Below, piece after piece: positions 9,908 through 16,684 of a stretch of 21,639 nt of DNA. This DNA comes from a virus. The notes under the pieces were generated by a model, which was given only the letters and a program-made list of their open reading frames with translations, had not been told where the DNA came from and ran no database searches. The stretch lies in the IMG/VR virus record IMGVR_UViG_3300033064_000537, positions 1 through 21,639 of that record; one strand, 5' to 3'. Within the stretch, counting starts at the first letter, position 1. The number at the start of each line of letters is the position of its first letter. The translations under genes were made by a program, and so were the position numbers.

Positions 9908-10128
9908 CCCAAGCGCCACACACGCACACCGTACCTGCCATATTCGGTACGGTTGTGCACCTCTAGCCGCATGTCTAACACGCGCTCGTAGGGCTTGAGT
10001 ATCCGCTGCACCATCTTGGCCGTAGCCGTAGTTGGCAGAAAGAAAGAACCGCCAAGCTGCAAGTTCTTCCAATCCACAAAATACTGGATGTCAAACAGCG
10101 TGATTATTTCCGGCTCAAGGTTTAACAT
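9904..10128 (-). CDS. Small conserved phage protein, 74 aa, last gene of the replication operon
   Basis: The ATG at 10128-10126 overlaps the end of the primase-helicase gene by 14 nt, so translation is probably coupled; no clear Shine-Dalgarno is visible. The TAG at 9906-9904 overlaps the stop of the convergent + strand gene. The protein has a small alpha/beta pattern with GGSFFLPTTATAKMVQRILKPY (26-47) and ends RYGVRVWRLG. A 'sFF-P ... GVRVWR' layout recurs in short phage proteins encoded beside primases. I recognise the pattern but no named family or function. It is judged real because it keeps the operon strand, junction style and a globular composition. Confidence 0.7.
   Translation of the reverse strand: MLNLEPEIITLFDIQYFVDWKNLQLGGSFFLPTTATAKMVQRILKPYERVLDMRLEVHNRTEYGRYGVRVWRLG
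9924..9958. terminator. Long hairpin at the convergence of the two operons
   Basis: Arms GCAC+ACCGTACC (9924-9935) and GGTACGGT+GTGC (9946-9953, 9955-9958) pair over 12 bp, with a 10-nt loop and one bulged base (9954). It lies 17 nt after the TAA of the 1806-aa gene and inside the 3' end of the opposing 74-aa gene. No U-tract follows on either strand, so a classical intrinsic terminator is not supported. It may still cause pausing, protect 3' ends, or limit read-through from both sides. Confidence 0.45.
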
Positions 10129-12973
10129 CTGGAGCGAACTGAGTGACGTCTAGGCCAATCGCCCGACCATCAAAACAGAAACACCGTGTGGGCAGTGAGG
10201 GTACACCCGACACAGCGCCAGAGCCAATGCGCTTAGATTTCTCGCCGCCCTCATGCCGTATCAATCCGGCTTTGACAAACAACGCCAAACTTCGCTGCAC
10301 GTCTACCTGCTTGCTCTGGCAATACCGCTTGAAATCTGCGGATACAACAAACAGATTTTGGGTGTCCGGCTCATACCGAATCTTCAACTGGTTGCCCCGT
10401 ATATCTCGGATTGGTGCCGATGGAATCCCGCCTTTGCCGATGCTATTGATGACCAGAATGCCATTGATATTCTCGTTGATGTACGAGGTCAAAGTCTCTT
10501 GAGCGATGGTAAGCGGATCACCCACTGCACTAGCGGTATAGATGCGGCTGTTGCTGATCAGGTTCAAAGCGTACTTGTAGATGCGATCAACGTCGATGTC
10601 ATGCAGACCCAGCCTGCGGGCAATCATCGCACCGACAAAAGCGCAAGCCAAGATGCACGAGTGGAACCGATCGGATTGGGACAGATTCAAGTCAGCATCC
10701 AGCGTAGCTTGCATCTTCTTGAGTGCGGCTATGACAGCTTCTTTGTCTTTGAATATCTCATTGATAAAGATCGGGCCAGCGTGGCCGTAGTTGTCATTCA
10801 ACAGGTTAAAAATTTCATCTGATTCTTCCTTACTGACGCCAGTAATAGGCGGCACAAATATCTCCAGTACGCGCCTCAACTCACCGTCTGATGTGCTCTT
10901 GAGTTGGCTCAGCTTGTCAATGATGGACGAGTTGCTAGACGTGACGGTGATGTTGCACCATGTGCTACCGTTGGCTCGTAGCTTGTTCGACTGCGCCTCC
11001 ATACGGTGTCTGCCTCGCCCCGCGGTTGTGCCGTACACCCAGTCTGATAACTCTAGGTCAAGCATGTTGGTAATCTCGTCGACAGTACTTGCCACGGAGT
11101 TCATCATACCCAGCCTGTGATACTTGGACGCTTGCGTGTCGTTCTTGTCCATGAGCAAATCCTTGGGGTTTCCAAAGAGCGAGTTGATAACCATCTGCGC
11201 AGTTGTCTTGCCAGTGCCTGATGCGTTGGACATCAAGTTAACCATAGCGCCTTTTACGGTGTTGCCGCCAATAAATTTAAGCAGTGGTGAGCCGAAGCCA
11301 AAGAAAAGGGCCAGTGCTTGTGCTTCCATTCCCGGACGGTTATAGAAGTTAGCAACCTTGGACCAGTTCTCCAACGTACCTTTAGGGTGGAACAGTGACG
11401 CGAATTGGCGTGTCCCGCTGCCCGGTGGGGCTAAGCGTGGGCCAGAAGCTGAGTACTCCAATTCCCCGATGACGAAGCCCTGCATATCGTCCGTCCAGCC
11501 CATCTGACTGCGTGTCCTATTGGCTGCATATTGGGATTGAAGTTGTTTGATGGTTGATCCGAAGTAGTTCATGATTAGTGGTATTTGATTTCCGTAGGCA
11601 ATAGCGCCGTGCTTAACTAAGGTGTCCCGCAGTTTCTCTGGAGAGAATAGGGCCGTTATGGGTGAATGAAACCTACGCACGCCATCGTGCTCAAGGTGCA
11701 GATTGATGCCCACCATTTCGCCATCGCCTTCGCCTTCTTTATCAAGGTCATAGAAACGTGTGGTCAGGTACAAGTCACGGTGGTACACCTCAAGGTCGAC
11801 AGGATCGCCAGCCTTATCTTTGGTCTTTAAATAAACTCCGCCAGCTAACCCGCGGAAATAAGGAAAGACATACTTCGGAATCGTCACCAGCACAGCTACT
11901 GCCGTTGGGTCTAAGTCAGGATCAATCAGGGCTTCTACAACGTAAGCGTCATCCACAACCTCTGACTCGACAACTACACGCCCCAGCGATATAGGGCTGG
12001 TAATCTTGTGGGCGCAACCCTCACACCCAGTGGGGGAATTCTGTTTGAACCACTCGCATGTGTACGGCCCCTTAGTTTCCGCGGCTTTCTTTTCCGTTGC
12101 TTCATAGGAGTACCCGCTGTGCGGTTTAGACATCCTATGGATACTCTTTTCACGATCCACACACACGGTAGCGATAGACAGGCCAGCCCGCCACAATGGT
12201 TCCTCCAGCGTAGCTGCATTATTCAAAATAAACGCAATCTGTGCGCAGCCAGTACCTTTTATACTGCGTTGTGCGATCTTAAGGAAGCTGCTATCTGGGT
12301 AGTCTAAACCCGCTAAATCGCTCGTAGTGGAATCGAATCCACCCTTTACGGAACTGAAGTCGACCATCATGGGCGCTGCTGGCAACAGCGCAGCGAAATC
12401 TTCTAACCTTATAGGTTTGCCCGTGTGCATTATGGACACCAAGCGCGATACGTCCTGTTTGTAGTTATGCGTACCCGGCATGCGCAGAACTCGTGCGCTG
12501 TCTGTCGACACTACAGGATCAATATCTAGCTCACCACTCAGGCATAACGTCTTTAGAGACTTGGCTACGGGCAACCATTCATCAACGGTCACATCACGGT
12601 CAAGCACCCAGTACACATGGACACCACCGCCCGAGCCAACTATGGTGGGTGTAGGTAACTTGTGCTTGTCTATGAATGCGCGAAGAGCCAGCATGGCTGC
12701 AGCTTGATCTGCGTATGGCTTACCAGCGCCGCAATCAATCTCTAAAAATATGGTGCGCAAGAATGCGACATTGCCCTGTGTGCGGCCATCAGCACGGGTC
12801 TTGAAGGTAGCTAACGCTTGATATGCGTCAAAGCCCTTGGCATCGTGCGCCTCGTTCACATCTGCCAACTCGTCTATGGAGTCACAGAAGGTCTGGCGTA
12901 CTTGTCCATCCTTAGCGGCAAATGAGCAGTACACACCCTGCGTAGGGAGTATTGTTGTTAGAAAATTATGCAC
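10115..12973 (-). CDS. Primase-polymerase / DUF927-type helicase fusion (952 aa)
   Basis: The start is GTG at 12973-12971, preceded by GAGG about 5 nt upstream. The N-terminal third resembles archaeo-eukaryotic primases of the PrimPol/RepB type: FLEIDCG (E78, D80), GSGGGVHVYW (113-122, H119) and SARVLRMPGTHN (159-170). A Cys cluster follows (C306, C317, C320, with H322 nearby), likely zinc-binding. The C-terminal half is a P-loop ATPase with ASGTGKTT (584-591, K589), a Walker B-like TVDEIT (D632, E633), a sensor-like TSSNSS, and LNDNYGHAGPIF downstream, which fits DUF927 ATPases. It would make primers and unwind DNA at the phage fork. Such fusions often replace separate primase and DnaB-like helicase genes, and no DnaB-like helicase is seen in this window. 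It is separated from the upstream HTH gene by a structured gap. Confidence 0.85.
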   Translation of the reverse strand: MHNFLTTILPTQGVYCSFAAKDGQVRQTFCDSIDELADVNEAHDAKGFDAYQALATFKTRADGRTQGNVAFLRTIFLEIDCGAGKPYADQAAAMLALRAFIDKHKLPTPTIVGSGGGVHVYWVLDRDVTVDEWLPVAKSLKTLCLSGELDIDPVVSTDSARVLRMPGTHNYKQDVSRLVSIMHTGKPIRLEDFAALLPAAPMMVDFSSVKGGFDSTTSDLAGLDYPDSSFLKIAQRSIKGTGCAQIAFILNNAATLEEPLWRAGLSIATVCVDREKSIHRMSKPHSGYSYEATEKKAAETKGPYTCEWFKQNSPTGCEGCAHKITSPISLGRVVVESEVVDDAYVVEALIDPDLDPTAVAVLVTIPKYVFPYFRGLAGGVYLKTKDKAGDPVDLEVYHRDLYLTTRFYDLDKEGEGDGEMVGINLHLEHDGVRRFHSPITALFSPEKLRDTLVKHGAIAYGNQIPLIMNYFGSTIKQLQSQYAANRTRSQMGWTDDMQGFVIGELEYSASGPRLAPPGSGTRQFASLFHPKGTLENWSKVANFYNRPGMEAQALALFFGFGSPLLKFIGGNTVKGAMVNLMSNASGTGKTTAQMVINSLFGNPKDLLMDKNDTQASKYHRLGMMNSVASTVDEITNMLDLELSDWVYGTTAGRGRHRMEAQSNKLRANGSTWCNITVTSSNSSIIDKLSQLKSTSDGELRRVLEIFVPPITGVSKEESDEIFNLLNDNYGHAGPIFINEIFKDKEAVIAALKKMQATLDADLNLSQSDRFHSCILACAFVGAMIARRLGLHDIDVDRIYKYALNLISNSRIYTASAVGDPLTIAQETLTSYINENINGILVINSIGKGGIPSAPIRDIRGNQLKIRYEPDTQNLFVVSADFKRYCQSKQVDVQRSLALFVKAGLIRHEGGEKSKRIGSGAVSGVPSLPTRCFCFDGRAIGLDVTQFAPDVKP

Positions 12974-13077: not shown

Positions 13078-13320
13078 CTATTCGGCGGAGAGTTCTGCCA
13101 CCAAAGCTTCTATGTCTTCGTGGTAACTTTTTCTCGGGTACGCTTCGCATTTAAACCAGCTGTACACCGATGCCCGACTGACACCAAGACGTTTCGCTAC
13201 ATCAAGCACCGGCATGTTGTGTGTGAAGCACACTTTTGCCAGCCTAACGGCGATCAGTCTTGAGTCAGCTGCCATGACACGCGCTACAAGAACGGTGCTA
13301 TAGCCCCTACTTTCATTCAT
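13078..13320 (-). CDS. Small HTH DNA-binding protein (80 aa)
   Basis: The ATG at 13320 lies within the last codons of the upstream gene (8-nt overlap). A helix-turn-helix is visible at about 37-56: PVLDVAKRLGVSRASVYSWF, with the AxxLGVSxxxVxxW pattern of Xre/MerR-like or resolvase-type HTH units. The N-terminal helix (LIAVRLAKVCFTHN) precedes it. The C-terminal IEALVAELSAE could be a short dimerisation helix. No metal site or other domain is seen. Short proteins of this layout occur near replication genes in many phages and may regulate transcription. It lies downstream of the promoter at 14661-14688, whose spacer is a palindrome, so it is a candidate for autoregulation. That link is an inference. 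An alternative start is Met16. Confidence 0.75.
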   Translation of the reverse strand: MNESRGYSTVLVARVMAADSRLIAVRLAKVCFTHNMPVLDVAKRLGVSRASVYSWFKCEAYPRKSYHEDIEALVAELSAE

Positions 13321-14185
13321 CGTCAGAACCCCAATTGTCCAAGATGTCAGCTACGTCTTTGCTCGGTGTAGGAGCAACTTCAGGCTTCTTGCTTGGGCGC
13401 TTAGTTGGCTCGGCAGCGGCTTCAATCTTAGGTGCTGCGCTAAACGTTGACGGCAAGGCCAGTGCTGGGGTAGCTTTAGCCTGTGTGACTTTAAACTCCA
13501 CAGCTTGGCGGGCGTCATCGGTCAGGCTCTGCAACTTGGCGGCTTCCCATTCGGTCTGGCTCAACGGACGCACAGCGCGGAACTTAAGCACTGGGACAGC
13601 CTCAGACGTGTCAAAACGAGCCTCAGTAACGATGCCGGTAATTGGAATACCGTGCCCGCCCAAGAACTTGCCAAACGCTTGCAGGGGCATCTTCTCGCCT
13701 TCAGCTTTACCAAAGAATGATTTAGCTGGGACTGAAATACGGTATACGTTACCGCTGATATCGCCTTCAAGAGCCACGGCCAAACGCTTGCTGAAACTGC
13801 ATGCGCGGGATTTGCCTTGACCAGAACCTTCAATATTCTGTGGGCATGTAGCGCATGCGCTCGACTGGGGTTCAGGCACCTCAGTGTTAGGAACAACACC
13901 TTCAGCAGACCAGCATGCAGGGGTTGTAGCTTTGCCTTCTTCGTACTTTTCAGCGTAGAAGGTGCGGGTGATGCCCTTGCCGGAAGCCAGAACCACAAGG
14001 TTCATAGCGCGTTCTTCGTTCTTTGCGACTTCTTCGCCACCGACCATCATGCGCCAGACGCCGCCTTTGATGGAGATTTGTTTGCCGCCGCCACCGCCAG
14101 CAAGTTCTTTAGTCGTGTCATCAACAATGCCACGCAGGTAATCAGGTACAGCGCCGCCAGCAGAAAAAAGTGTAATGTTGCTCAT
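13313..14185 (-). CDS. Probable phage ssDNA-binding protein with Cys cluster and acidic tail (290 aa)
   Basis: The ATG at 14185 is preceded by a weak TGGA. The body has beta-rich segments (KQISIKGGVWRMMVGGEEV; RAMNLVVLASGKGITRTFY) consistent with an OB-like fold. Four cysteines (C91, C111, C114, C129; CATCPQN in the middle) could bind zinc, as in T4 gp32-type proteins. Residues 240-275 are a Pro/Ala/Lys linker, and the protein ends in an acidic tail (DILDNWGSDDE). Tails of this type let SSB and T7 gp2.5 contact polymerase and helicase. It sits between a coiled-coil protein and the HTH and primase genes. The ssDNA-binding assignment rests on layout and context, not on a recognised domain signature. 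Alternative: a conserved phage protein of other function. Confidence 0.6.
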   Translation of the reverse strand: MSNITLFSAGGAVPDYLRGIVDDTTKELAGGGGGKQISIKGGVWRMMVGGEEVAKNEERAMNLVVLASGKGITRTFYAEKYEEGKATTPACWSAEGVVPNTEVPEPQSSACATCPQNIEGSGQGKSRACSFSKRLAVALEGDISGNVYRISVPAKSFFGKAEGEKMPLQAFGKFLGGHGIPITGIVTEARFDTSEAVPVLKFRAVRPLSQTEWEAAKLQSLTDDARQAVEFKVTQAKATPALALPSTFSAAPKIEAAAEPTKRPSKKPEVAPTPSKDVADILDNWGSDDE

Positions 14186-14238: not shown

Positions 14239-14631
14239 TTACTTTGTAGTCCTCCGTACGGTGATTGCATACCTCGATACTACGTTTAAACCCTCTGGCA
14301 TAGTGTCTGGGTTTTCCTGTAGGAATGTCTTCAAGTTCAATTGTGAAACACGGCGTTCTAGCAAATCAAAGGCATCATGTTCCTTAACAAAGCGGTACAT
14401 TGCATCCCAATTTGTCGGGTTGTAACGTGTGCTCACCTTGCGTGTGAACGAACCAAATTCTGTCTTGCCGCCATCCTGCCCTGTCTCTTTGCAGATTTCC
14501 AAAAGCTCCTGCTCAATGACTTCCAACTGAGCGTCCAACGCGGCGATCGCTTCGTCCATCTCCTTTGACTTAGCCGCCTTGGCGTCTCTGATTTTGACGT
14601 AAACTTTGACTAGGTTTGCTGCATCTGCCAT
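14239..14631 (-). CDS. Conserved phage coiled-coil protein (130 aa)
   Basis: The frame is open to an ATG at 14688, but the likely start is the ATG at 14631. It has AAGGA 7 nt upstream and lies downstream of the promoter at 14661-14688, whereas the longer start would be upstream of that promoter. Residues 13-50 are a charged heptad-like helix (AKSKEMDEAIAALDAQLEVIEQ). A compact C-terminal half follows: GGKTEFGSFTRKV, NPTNWDAMYRFVKEHDAFDLLERRVSQL and PEGLNVVSRYAITVRR. This layout (coiled coil, then 'TEFG', 'W..~~~fv', 'LERRV', 'PEG') recurs in phage proteins beside SSB-like genes; some are compared to Gam-like nuclease inhibitors. I do not assign a function. It is the first gene after the promoter. 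Confidence 0.75.
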   Translation of the reverse strand: MADAANLVKVYVKIRDAKAAKSKEMDEAIAALDAQLEVIEQELLEICKETGQDGGKTEFGSFTRKVSTRYNPTNWDAMYRFVKEHDAFDLLERRVSQLNLKTFLQENPDTMPEGLNVVSRYAITVRRTTK

Positions 14632-14660
14632 ATCGGTTCCTTGTGTTGTTGATTTGTAGA

Positions 14661-14688
14661 AGTATACACTGTTAAGCGACAGTGTCAA
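14661..14688 (-). promoter_or_regulatory. Sigma70-type promoter driving the SSB/HTH/primase operon
   Basis: On the - strand, TTGACA (14688-14683, perfect -35) and TATACT (14666-14661, one mismatch to TATAAT) are separated by 16 bp. The predicted transcription start near 14654 leaves about 23 nt of leader containing AAGGA before the ATG at 14631. The -35 overlaps the stop codon of the upstream helicase gene, so transcription can restart at the gene border. Confidence 0.8.
14666..14685. promoter_or_regulatory. Operator candidate: 7-bp perfect inverted repeat in the promoter spacer
   Basis: ACACTGT (14666-14672) and ACAGTGT (14679-14685) form a perfect dyad with a 6-bp centre. The dyad spans the whole spacer between -35 and -10 and touches both boxes. 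A dimeric repressor bound here would block RNA polymerase. The 80-aa HTH protein, encoded in the operon this promoter drives, is the nearest candidate ligand, but the pairing is unproven. Confidence 0.65.
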
Positions 14689-16283
14689 GTATTATCTTCA
14701 AGTTCCTGTTTATATAAATCCACCAGCGTCTGATGCGAATCGACTTTCCCGTCCAGCATTGCATACATTCGTTTCTCAACTGGGCTACCCTGCATTCGTA
14801 CGATAGTCACTTTGTTTTTCTGACCAGCGCGATGGGCACGGGCGTTACCCTGCAAATAAAGTTCTGCTGAAGATACCGGCCCCCACCAAACAACTGTGTC
14901 AGCCCGAGTAAGCGTGATCCCGTGCGCCGCCGCTTGGGGGATCAGCAGCAAAATACGCAGTGTGTTCTCCGTCTGAAAGCGCTTAATAATCTCTGCTCGT
15001 TGTGACGCTGGCACACCACCGTGGATACAGTCGACCTCATACCCACCACCATCAACAGCATGTAGCGCCTGTAACTTGGAAGCGCGTTTAGCCAACTCAT
15101 CCTGCACCTTAGCCATAGCATGACGGAACGGAACAAACACAATGATCTTGTGCGGTGTCTGCTCGATCACATCCATCAACTCGTTGGCCCTATTGCTCAC
15201 GTCAAACTCCACAACCTCCCTAGTATCCGTATAGGCCACGCCTTGCGAAATCTGAAGCAGCTTGTTCAGCATGGACGCTGCATTGACCGCGGTAATCTCC
15301 TCACCCGCAGCTAGGGCCATCATCTGTTTCTTGATCGCATCGTAGTATTTGTTCTGCTGCGCAGTCAACGGCACATCCCGATCGGAATACAGCATGTCGG
15401 GCAGGTCAAGGCACTCGTCCTTCGTAAACCGGATAGCTGGCTGCAACGCCTTGAATACTGTGTCCTGTGAGTCCTGCCGCGGAATCCATTTGTATTGCGT
15501 AATCTTGGTCATCACTTTGTCCCGCCATGCGCCAAAGAACCGCGGTACTGATGCCGGGTTCAACATCTTGGCTAGGCCATATGCGTCCTCCGGTGACTGC
15601 GATGCTGGGGTTCCTGTCATTAGCCACAAGCGAGTCGTAGGTTTGATGAGCGCAAACAAAGCCTTCCATCTGTCTGTAGCCACGTTCTTAACCGCGTTCG
15701 CTTCGTCAATGATGATGAGGTCAAAATTAGCTGCATCCAATTCCGCGTTTACAACTTTCACACCATCGAAGTTGATGATGACAAACTCGTAGTTGCCCTT
15801 AACCACAGCAATGCGCTGCAGCCTAGTACCCTGCGCAATGGCAACCGAACGGTGCATGGCTATCCGAAACAAGTCAGCCCTCCATGCGGTGTCCATAATC
15901 GACACGGGGCACACGATGAGGACGCGTTTGATCTTACCCTGTGTTATGAGGTAGTCAGCCGCCCACGCTGCTGCACTGGTCTTGCCCGTACCTGCCTCGC
16001 TGAAGTTGTAGCAACGTGTGTGCTGTGTGAAGAAGTCGGCTGTGGTGCGCTGATGGTCGAACGGTGTGTACACCCCCGGCCAGTTGTACTTACCCAAGAT
16101 AGGGCTTGGCACTTCCTTAATACCCAGATTGCGTAGCAATTGCACCTCGTCTAGTCCCCAATGAACCAGCACTTTTGATAGCTCTCCATTGGACTCAAGT
16201 ATCTTGGATTTCGGGATGAGACTCGTGATCTGATGGGCTTTCTTCGTGACGAAAAGAATGGCCTTGTTGTCTATGATTTGCAT
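14685..16283 (-). CDS. SNF2/DEAD-like superfamily 2 helicase (532 aa)
   Basis: All main SF2/SNF2 motifs are visible: a Q-like FDHQ (75-78), Walker A SEAGTGKTS (95-103, K101), IVCPVSIM (123-130), DEAN (193-196) and LMTGTPAS (221-228). In the second RecA lobe are IIVFVPFRHAMAKV, DCIHGGVPASQRAEII, PQAAAHGITLTRADTVVWW and QGNARAHRAGQ (478-488, arginine-finger motif VI). The protein is complete and typical in length for phage SNF2-like ATPases. It translocates on DNA or remodels protein-DNA complexes during replication and recombination. The start is the ATG at 16283; no clear Shine-Dalgarno is seen and no other in-frame ATG lies upstream. A terminator precedes the gene and the next operon's promoter overlaps its stop. 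Confidence 0.9.
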   Translation of the reverse strand: MQIIDNKAILFVTKKAHQITSLIPKSKILESNGELSKVLVHWGLDEVQLLRNLGIKEVPSPILGKYNWPGVYTPFDHQRTTADFFTQHTRCYNFSEAGTGKTSAAAWAADYLITQGKIKRVLIVCPVSIMDTAWRADLFRIAMHRSVAIAQGTRLQRIAVVKGNYEFVIINFDGVKVVNAELDAANFDLIIIDEANAVKNVATDRWKALFALIKPTTRLWLMTGTPASQSPEDAYGLAKMLNPASVPRFFGAWRDKVMTKITQYKWIPRQDSQDTVFKALQPAIRFTKDECLDLPDMLYSDRDVPLTAQQNKYYDAIKKQMMALAAGEEITAVNAASMLNKLLQISQGVAYTDTREVVEFDVSNRANELMDVIEQTPHKIIVFVPFRHAMAKVQDELAKRASKLQALHAVDGGGYEVDCIHGGVPASQRAEIIKRFQTENTLRILLLIPQAAAHGITLTRADTVVWWGPVSSAELYLQGNARAHRAGQKNKVTIVRMQGSPVEKRMYAMLDGKVDSHQTLVDLYKQELEDNT

Positions 16284-16380: not shown

Positions 16381-16674
16381 TTACTTGGAGCGCGTACGCT
16401 CGGATTTACTGGTTTGAGACTTCATTGCACCAGTTTTGGTGCGGGAAAAACTTCGGTTCTCAGACTTCGGAACTGCACGTAGGTTGCCCAATGCGGTCTT
16501 CCCACCCTTGGACATAGCCTTGGTGTGGTCGATATCGTCGCCCTCTGGGATCGTTCCGTGCGCCTTGGTGTATATACGCCGTGCGCTGTTCCGGTCTGAC
16601 CTATTGGCGATCTGCTCGGGTTTACCCTGAAAATTTTTATATTCCGCTTTGTAATCTCGTGGTTTGGTAGCCAT
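16381..16674 (-). CDS. HNH endonuclease-like protein (97 aa)
   Basis: The ATG at 16674 is chosen because AAGGAG lies 6 nt upstream; the frame extends to 16881, but that part overlaps the upstream nuclease gene and looks unlike protein. The N-terminus MATKPRDYKAEYKNFQGKPEQ and DRNSARRIYTKAHG precede the HNH core GDDIDHTKAMSKGG (H50), GNLRAVPKSENRSFSR (N64, N73), and a basic tail follows. D-x-DH...N...N matches short phage HNH proteins, which cut or nick DNA with one divalent metal. No zinc-binding CxxC pair is present. Its place beside a RecB-like nuclease and a helicase suggests DNA processing rather than a free-standing homing gene, but homing or packaging roles are possible. Confidence 0.75.
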   Translation of the reverse strand: MATKPRDYKAEYKNFQGKPEQIANRSDRNSARRIYTKAHGTIPEGDDIDHTKAMSKGGKTALGNLRAVPKSENRSFSRTKTGAMKSQTSKSERTRSK

Positions 16675-16684
16675 GATTGTCTCC

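Follow-up and report, generated by a model that had tools for sequence, protein, structure and literature searches.

Aca regulators block RNA polymerase from inverted repeats, one or two in number, that lie in the core promoter (PMC9410906, PMC9410881). Aca1, Aca2 and Aca10, which are encoded in acr-aca operons, are small phage HTH proteins encoded in their own operons, as is the 80-aa HTH protein of the locus described here, which lies in a 21,639-nucleotide stretch of viral DNA (IMG/VR record IMGVR_UViG_3300033064_000537, positions 1 to 21,639; hereafter the window). The combination of a conserved inverted repeat in the core promoter and an HTH gene in the operon, which marks the Aca autorepressors, is also found at this locus, and the 80-aa model has Aca2 and Aca10 among its structural neighbours. 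However, the operon of the window carries replication genes, the neighbours of the HTH gene encode a DUF7307 protein, a 290-aa protein and a primase, with no acr gene seen, and the published site of Aca10 is unlike the 13-bp TTGAC-N3-GTCAA box found here. The architecture matches that of the published Aca systems, yet the system is not classed as Aca, and repression at this locus is a prediction. Lambdoid repressors of the Cro/cI type (P22 c2, 434 Cro) share the lambda-repressor fold with the 80-aa model, P22 c2 being its top Foldseek match, and use short palindromic operators that overlap the promoter, as is proposed here; they differ in that the sequence identity is about 16%, and in that the window shows no lysogeny module and one operon rather than a multi-operator switch. 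The C proteins of restriction-modification systems (C.Esp1396I, C.BclI) belong to the same fold group and autoregulate through promoter sites, again as proposed here, but the locus is without restriction-modification genes and an activator role is not indicated. The best reading of the locus is probably autorepression by the HTH protein in the style of the Aca and Cro regulators, with putative binding. The features concerned are as follows.

14685..16283, minus strand: gene for an SNF2-type helicase, upstream of the operon, with its stop codon within the −35 hexamer
14661..14688, minus strand: predicted sigma70-type promoter (−35 TTGACA at 14688-14683, 16-bp spacer, −10 TATACT at 14666-14661)
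14676..14688, minus strand: box O1, TTGAC-ACT-GTCGC, putative operator overlapping the −35 hexamer and the helicase stop codon
14663..14675, minus strand: box O2, TTAAC-AGT-GTATA, putative operator overlapping the −10 hexamer
14666..14685: perfect dyad ACACTGT-N6-ACAGTGT, formed by the adjoining inner portions of O1 and O2
about 14654, minus strand: predicted transcription start
14637..14642, minus strand: ribosome-binding site AAGGAA
14239..14631, minus strand: operon gene 1, for a 130-aa DUF7307 / Pam3 gp33-like protein (Pfam PF23984, E=7e-8; phrog_13900), with its ATG at 14631
13313..14185, minus strand: gene for a 290-aa conserved protein (phrog_27714, a PHROG of unknown function)
13078..13320, minus strand: gene for the 80-aa HTH protein, candidate autoregulator, with a lambda-repressor/XRE fold and its recognition helix at residues 49-56
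10115..12973, minus strand: gene for a 952-aa primase/helicase (DUF927)

The minus strand from 14688 to 14661 reads TTGACA CTGTCGCTTAACAGTG TATACT, which matches the consensus at 11 of 12 positions with a spacer of 16 bp. The sequence and coordinates given for this promoter in a preliminary description are correct, and so is its placement at the end of the helicase gene, the TGA at 14685-14687 falling within TTGACA. It is the top-scoring promoter match in the 16.6 kb scanned, with runners-up at 9/12, and promoter-like sites as a whole are not in excess there (10 in total as against 12.8 expected). Several hundred relatives were fetched from IMG/VR and the junction between the helicase and DUF7307 genes was extracted, giving 96 distinct junctions. 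The promoter is present at 10/12 or better in 89 of these 96, and its spacer is exactly 16 bp, at the equivalent position, in 83. The promoter is therefore above chance and real by the measure of its conservation across the junctions of the relatives. In six loci (L050, L051, L113, L223, L225, L229) other genes (about 300-570 nt) are inserted after the helicase gene, and promoter and box are both found downstream of this insert, on the DUF7307 side. The phage collection contains no relative of the window at the DNA level; the nearest isolate, Pseudomonas phage Rollin (28-29% protein identity), retains TTGACA-N16-TATACT where its helicase gene ends but has neither the box nor this HTH protein. 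Near-consensus hexamers, a spacing within 16-18 bp and retention in relatives give good support, at the sequence level, for a sigma70-type promoter serving the replication operon. A second near-perfect promoter, TTGACA-N17-TATAAT, recurs in G001, G002, G009, G011 and G014 (L161, L167, L163, L164 and L162, respectively) and contains an inner TATAAT-like repeat, for example TTGACAACATACCTATAATCTGTTATAAT.

The genes of the operon, all on the minus strand, encode in order the DUF7307 protein, the 290-aa protein, the 80-aa HTH protein and the primase/helicase. The operon does encode an HTH protein, as proposed previously, but its gene is the third and the first is that of the 130-aa DUF7307 protein. 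The proposed primase is likewise present as the 952-aa DUF927 protein. The 290-aa protein was taken for an SSB, an assignment that finds no backing, as it has no match in Pfam or PDB and its AF2 model has a pLDDT of 36. The AF2 model of the 80-aa protein (pLDDT 86) has five helices and the XRE or lambda-repressor-like fold. Its structural neighbours are P22 c2, HigA and C proteins (Z 6-7) and Aca2/Aca10, and 50 and 52 of 58 members match HTH_3 and HTH_23, respectively. The protein is assigned to this fold and not to a named family, because no Foldseek match has an E-value below 0.001. An ORF for a 98-aa HNH endonuclease-like protein (16381-16677 of the window), kept in most relatives, lies between the exonuclease and helicase genes. 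Many relatives, though not the window, have a hairpin of 50-75 nt in the operon leader, between the promoter and the ribosome-binding site (for example L093, L017, L118, L237, L053, L138 and L126). This hairpin, GGGGGAAAGC...AGC..AGUACCCCC, has a bulged-G-like GAA/AGUA internal loop, folds only mildly better than shuffles and has no match in Rfam. A second leader form, CGGGUUAG(C/U)GCC...UGCUU(U/C)AUG.GAG, occupies the same insertion point in L057, L135, L140 and L147.

The unit conserved among the relatives, TTGAC-N3-GT(C)AA, is 13 bp long. This box lies over the −10 hexamer in most relatives, over the −35 hexamer in a distant clade and over both in the lineage of the window. In the main clade the box over −10 reads TTGAC-N3-GTATA. 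Among 49 distinct relatives with the 16-bp spacer, the AC and TG columns of ACNNTGTATAAT are invariant (49/49), and the left half of the spacer shows no such constraint. In the distant clade, with helicases 53-60% identical, TTGAC-N3-GTNAA lies over −35, and L317, L299, L323 and L338 of this clade have a perfect TTGACNNNGTCAA there. When the gap after TTGAC was scanned in the very sequences from which the box consensus was derived, GT was found exactly 3 nt downstream at 28 of 71 sites in the main clade, at 16 of 20 in the distant clade with the HTH gene and at 1 of 17 where that gene is absent. Both boxes abut in several lineages; in 9 of 40 representatives, where 2.5 would be expected, O1 has its GT at the correct distance, and these include every one of the three from the clade of the window. 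Comparison with these relatives shows that the promoter is conserved and that the 13-bp box lies over one or both of its hexamers. The boxes of the window itself are degenerate (O1 8/10 and O2 7/10 to the consensus). TTGACNNNGTCAA is absent from the window at one mismatch or fewer and occurs at 22 sites at up to two mismatches, a count that tops those of 60 permuted half-sites and 16 gaps, although these sites lie mostly in coding DNA. Of 14 long records, 11 contain a single copy of ACANTGTAYAMT, located, where positions were compared, at this promoter.

The conserved AC..TG might instead reflect a preference of the host polymerase at a plain strong early promoter that has no operator, with the HTH protein acting elsewhere. 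Every conserved column falls in or beside the hexamers, and a spacer of 16 bp with TG at −14/−13 could be a host-specific form of promoter. However, strong promoters elsewhere in these genomes show TGnTATAAT with a 17-bp spacer and have no AC..TG, so that the conserved columns are not an extended −10 element; the TG, moreover, directly abuts TATACT in the window and its relatives, which is the wrong register for TGnTATAAT. In addition, the distant clade has the box over −35 together with an unrelated −10 context, and the box is missing from lineages that have no HTH gene, Rollin having the promoter at the helicase stop alone. A plain promoter is therefore an unlikely explanation.

Among 123 relatives, 120 carry the HTH gene, which lies between the genes for the 290-aa protein and the primase. 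Of the 141 loci that have the HTH gene, 88 show TTGACnnnGT close to the end of the helicase gene, compared with 1 of the 25 that lack it (shuffle expectation 0.5 and 0.05, respectively), at least 3 kb of downstream sequence being needed for a locus to be scored as lacking the gene; within the distant clade the values are 21/21 and 1/25. Some relatives with the HTH gene, L064 and L071 among them, have no clear box. Residue 50 of the HTH protein, the second in the recognition helix, also tends to vary with the first N of O2: A, S, T, V or P accompanies A in 74 cases, Q or H accompanies T in 19 and L or M accompanies C in 5, with 5 exceptions. This residue is A in the protein of the window, Q in that of L237 and L in that of L181. 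On the helicase tree, this covariation comprises 3 base changes, 1 change of residue class and 2 agreeing T/C pairs out of 2, and the co-occurrence of box and HTH gene rests on 2 changes of HTH presence. Both relations are suggestive and not significant, because no more than 2-3 independent events can be counted on the tree. The same scarcity of independent changes in HTH presence favours an alternative in which a host regulator or another phage protein recognises the boxes and the co-occurrence reflects shared ancestry. Against it, each record has a single box of the −10 type, located at the operon of the HTH protein itself, and the residue of the recognition helix tends to track the base of the box. 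Binding by such another protein is accordingly regarded as quite improbable.

According to the preliminary description, the operator is a palindrome that fills the spacer. The dyad ACACTGT/ACAGTGT is indeed perfect in the window, but it is not confined to the spacer, since it takes in the ACA of −35 at one end and the first T of −10 at the other. It arises because O1 and O2 abut and their inner parts form one 20-bp palindrome. A search for further copies, which had been suggested, gives a single occurrence in the 21.6-kb window, the IMG/VR record being a genome fragment. When the left and right halves of 49 distinct 28-mers were shuffled among sequences and the four inner pairs scored, the relatives had a mean of 0.92 matches as against 1.03 in the shuffles, so that matches are rarer than in shuffled sequences, and a perfect palindrome was present in 57% of the shuffles. 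That the 20-bp palindrome is the operator is very unlikely and was rejected: besides the perfect copy of the window there are partial ones in L002, L003, L082 and the ACACTGAAATTTGACAGTGT group, but among relatives neither its left arm nor its pairing is maintained, and compensating changes are lacking. The LexA/SOS box of the E. coli type is CTGT-N8-ACAG, and such a box was rejected for the window, where the spacing is CTGT-N6-ACAG. A DnaA box was rejected because the column required for TGTGTATAA varies among relatives.

The reading preferred here, which is probable on the comparative evidence, is that the 13-bp boxes are bound by the 80-aa HTH protein, which thereby represses the replication operon that encodes it. 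Self-limiting expression is common among phage operons. The genes of this operon are probably self-limiting as well, because the boxes over the promoter resemble sites for the operon's own small repressor. When the promoter fires, the HTH protein would accumulate. A dimer of this XRE-like protein would then bind O1 on −35, O2 on −10 or both, and may compete with host RNA polymerase and exclude it from the hexamers, such that expression of the operon would be capped once the level of the HTH protein suffices. The lineage of the window would have retained degenerate O1 and O2 back to back. Autoregulation by the HTH protein, as first suggested, is probable and is supported by the comparison (operon conservation, co-occurrence, single site, fold and some covariation).

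A more tentative and rather doubtful extension is a group-wide switch, in which the hexamers would double as operator half-sites (TTGAC-N3-GTNAA, TTGAC-N3-GTATA-AT), the operator would shift between −35 and −10 by lineage and residue 50 would track the base. Such a switch would provide a natural series of changes in protein-DNA specificity, in which the same bases must serve the promoter hexamers while repressor and operator change together. If the binding is true, residue 50 as A, Q/H or L/M facing base A, T or C would be a ready set for the study of repressor/operator co-change; if it is not, the case would be one of ordinary phage autoregulation. The analysis names a candidate operator and a candidate regulator for the replication operon of abundant, mostly uncultured phages, represented by hundreds of IMG/VR contigs.

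Box-like direct-repeat arrays are also seen upstream of a homologous gene for a protein of about 200 aa in some genomes (L349, L350, L351 and L363). They comprise three copies of TTGACTTAGTAAA with a 40-bp period, seven copies of TTTACTNAGTACA and a cluster of TTGACTGAGTCAA, and may represent a second target or packaging or origin repeats.
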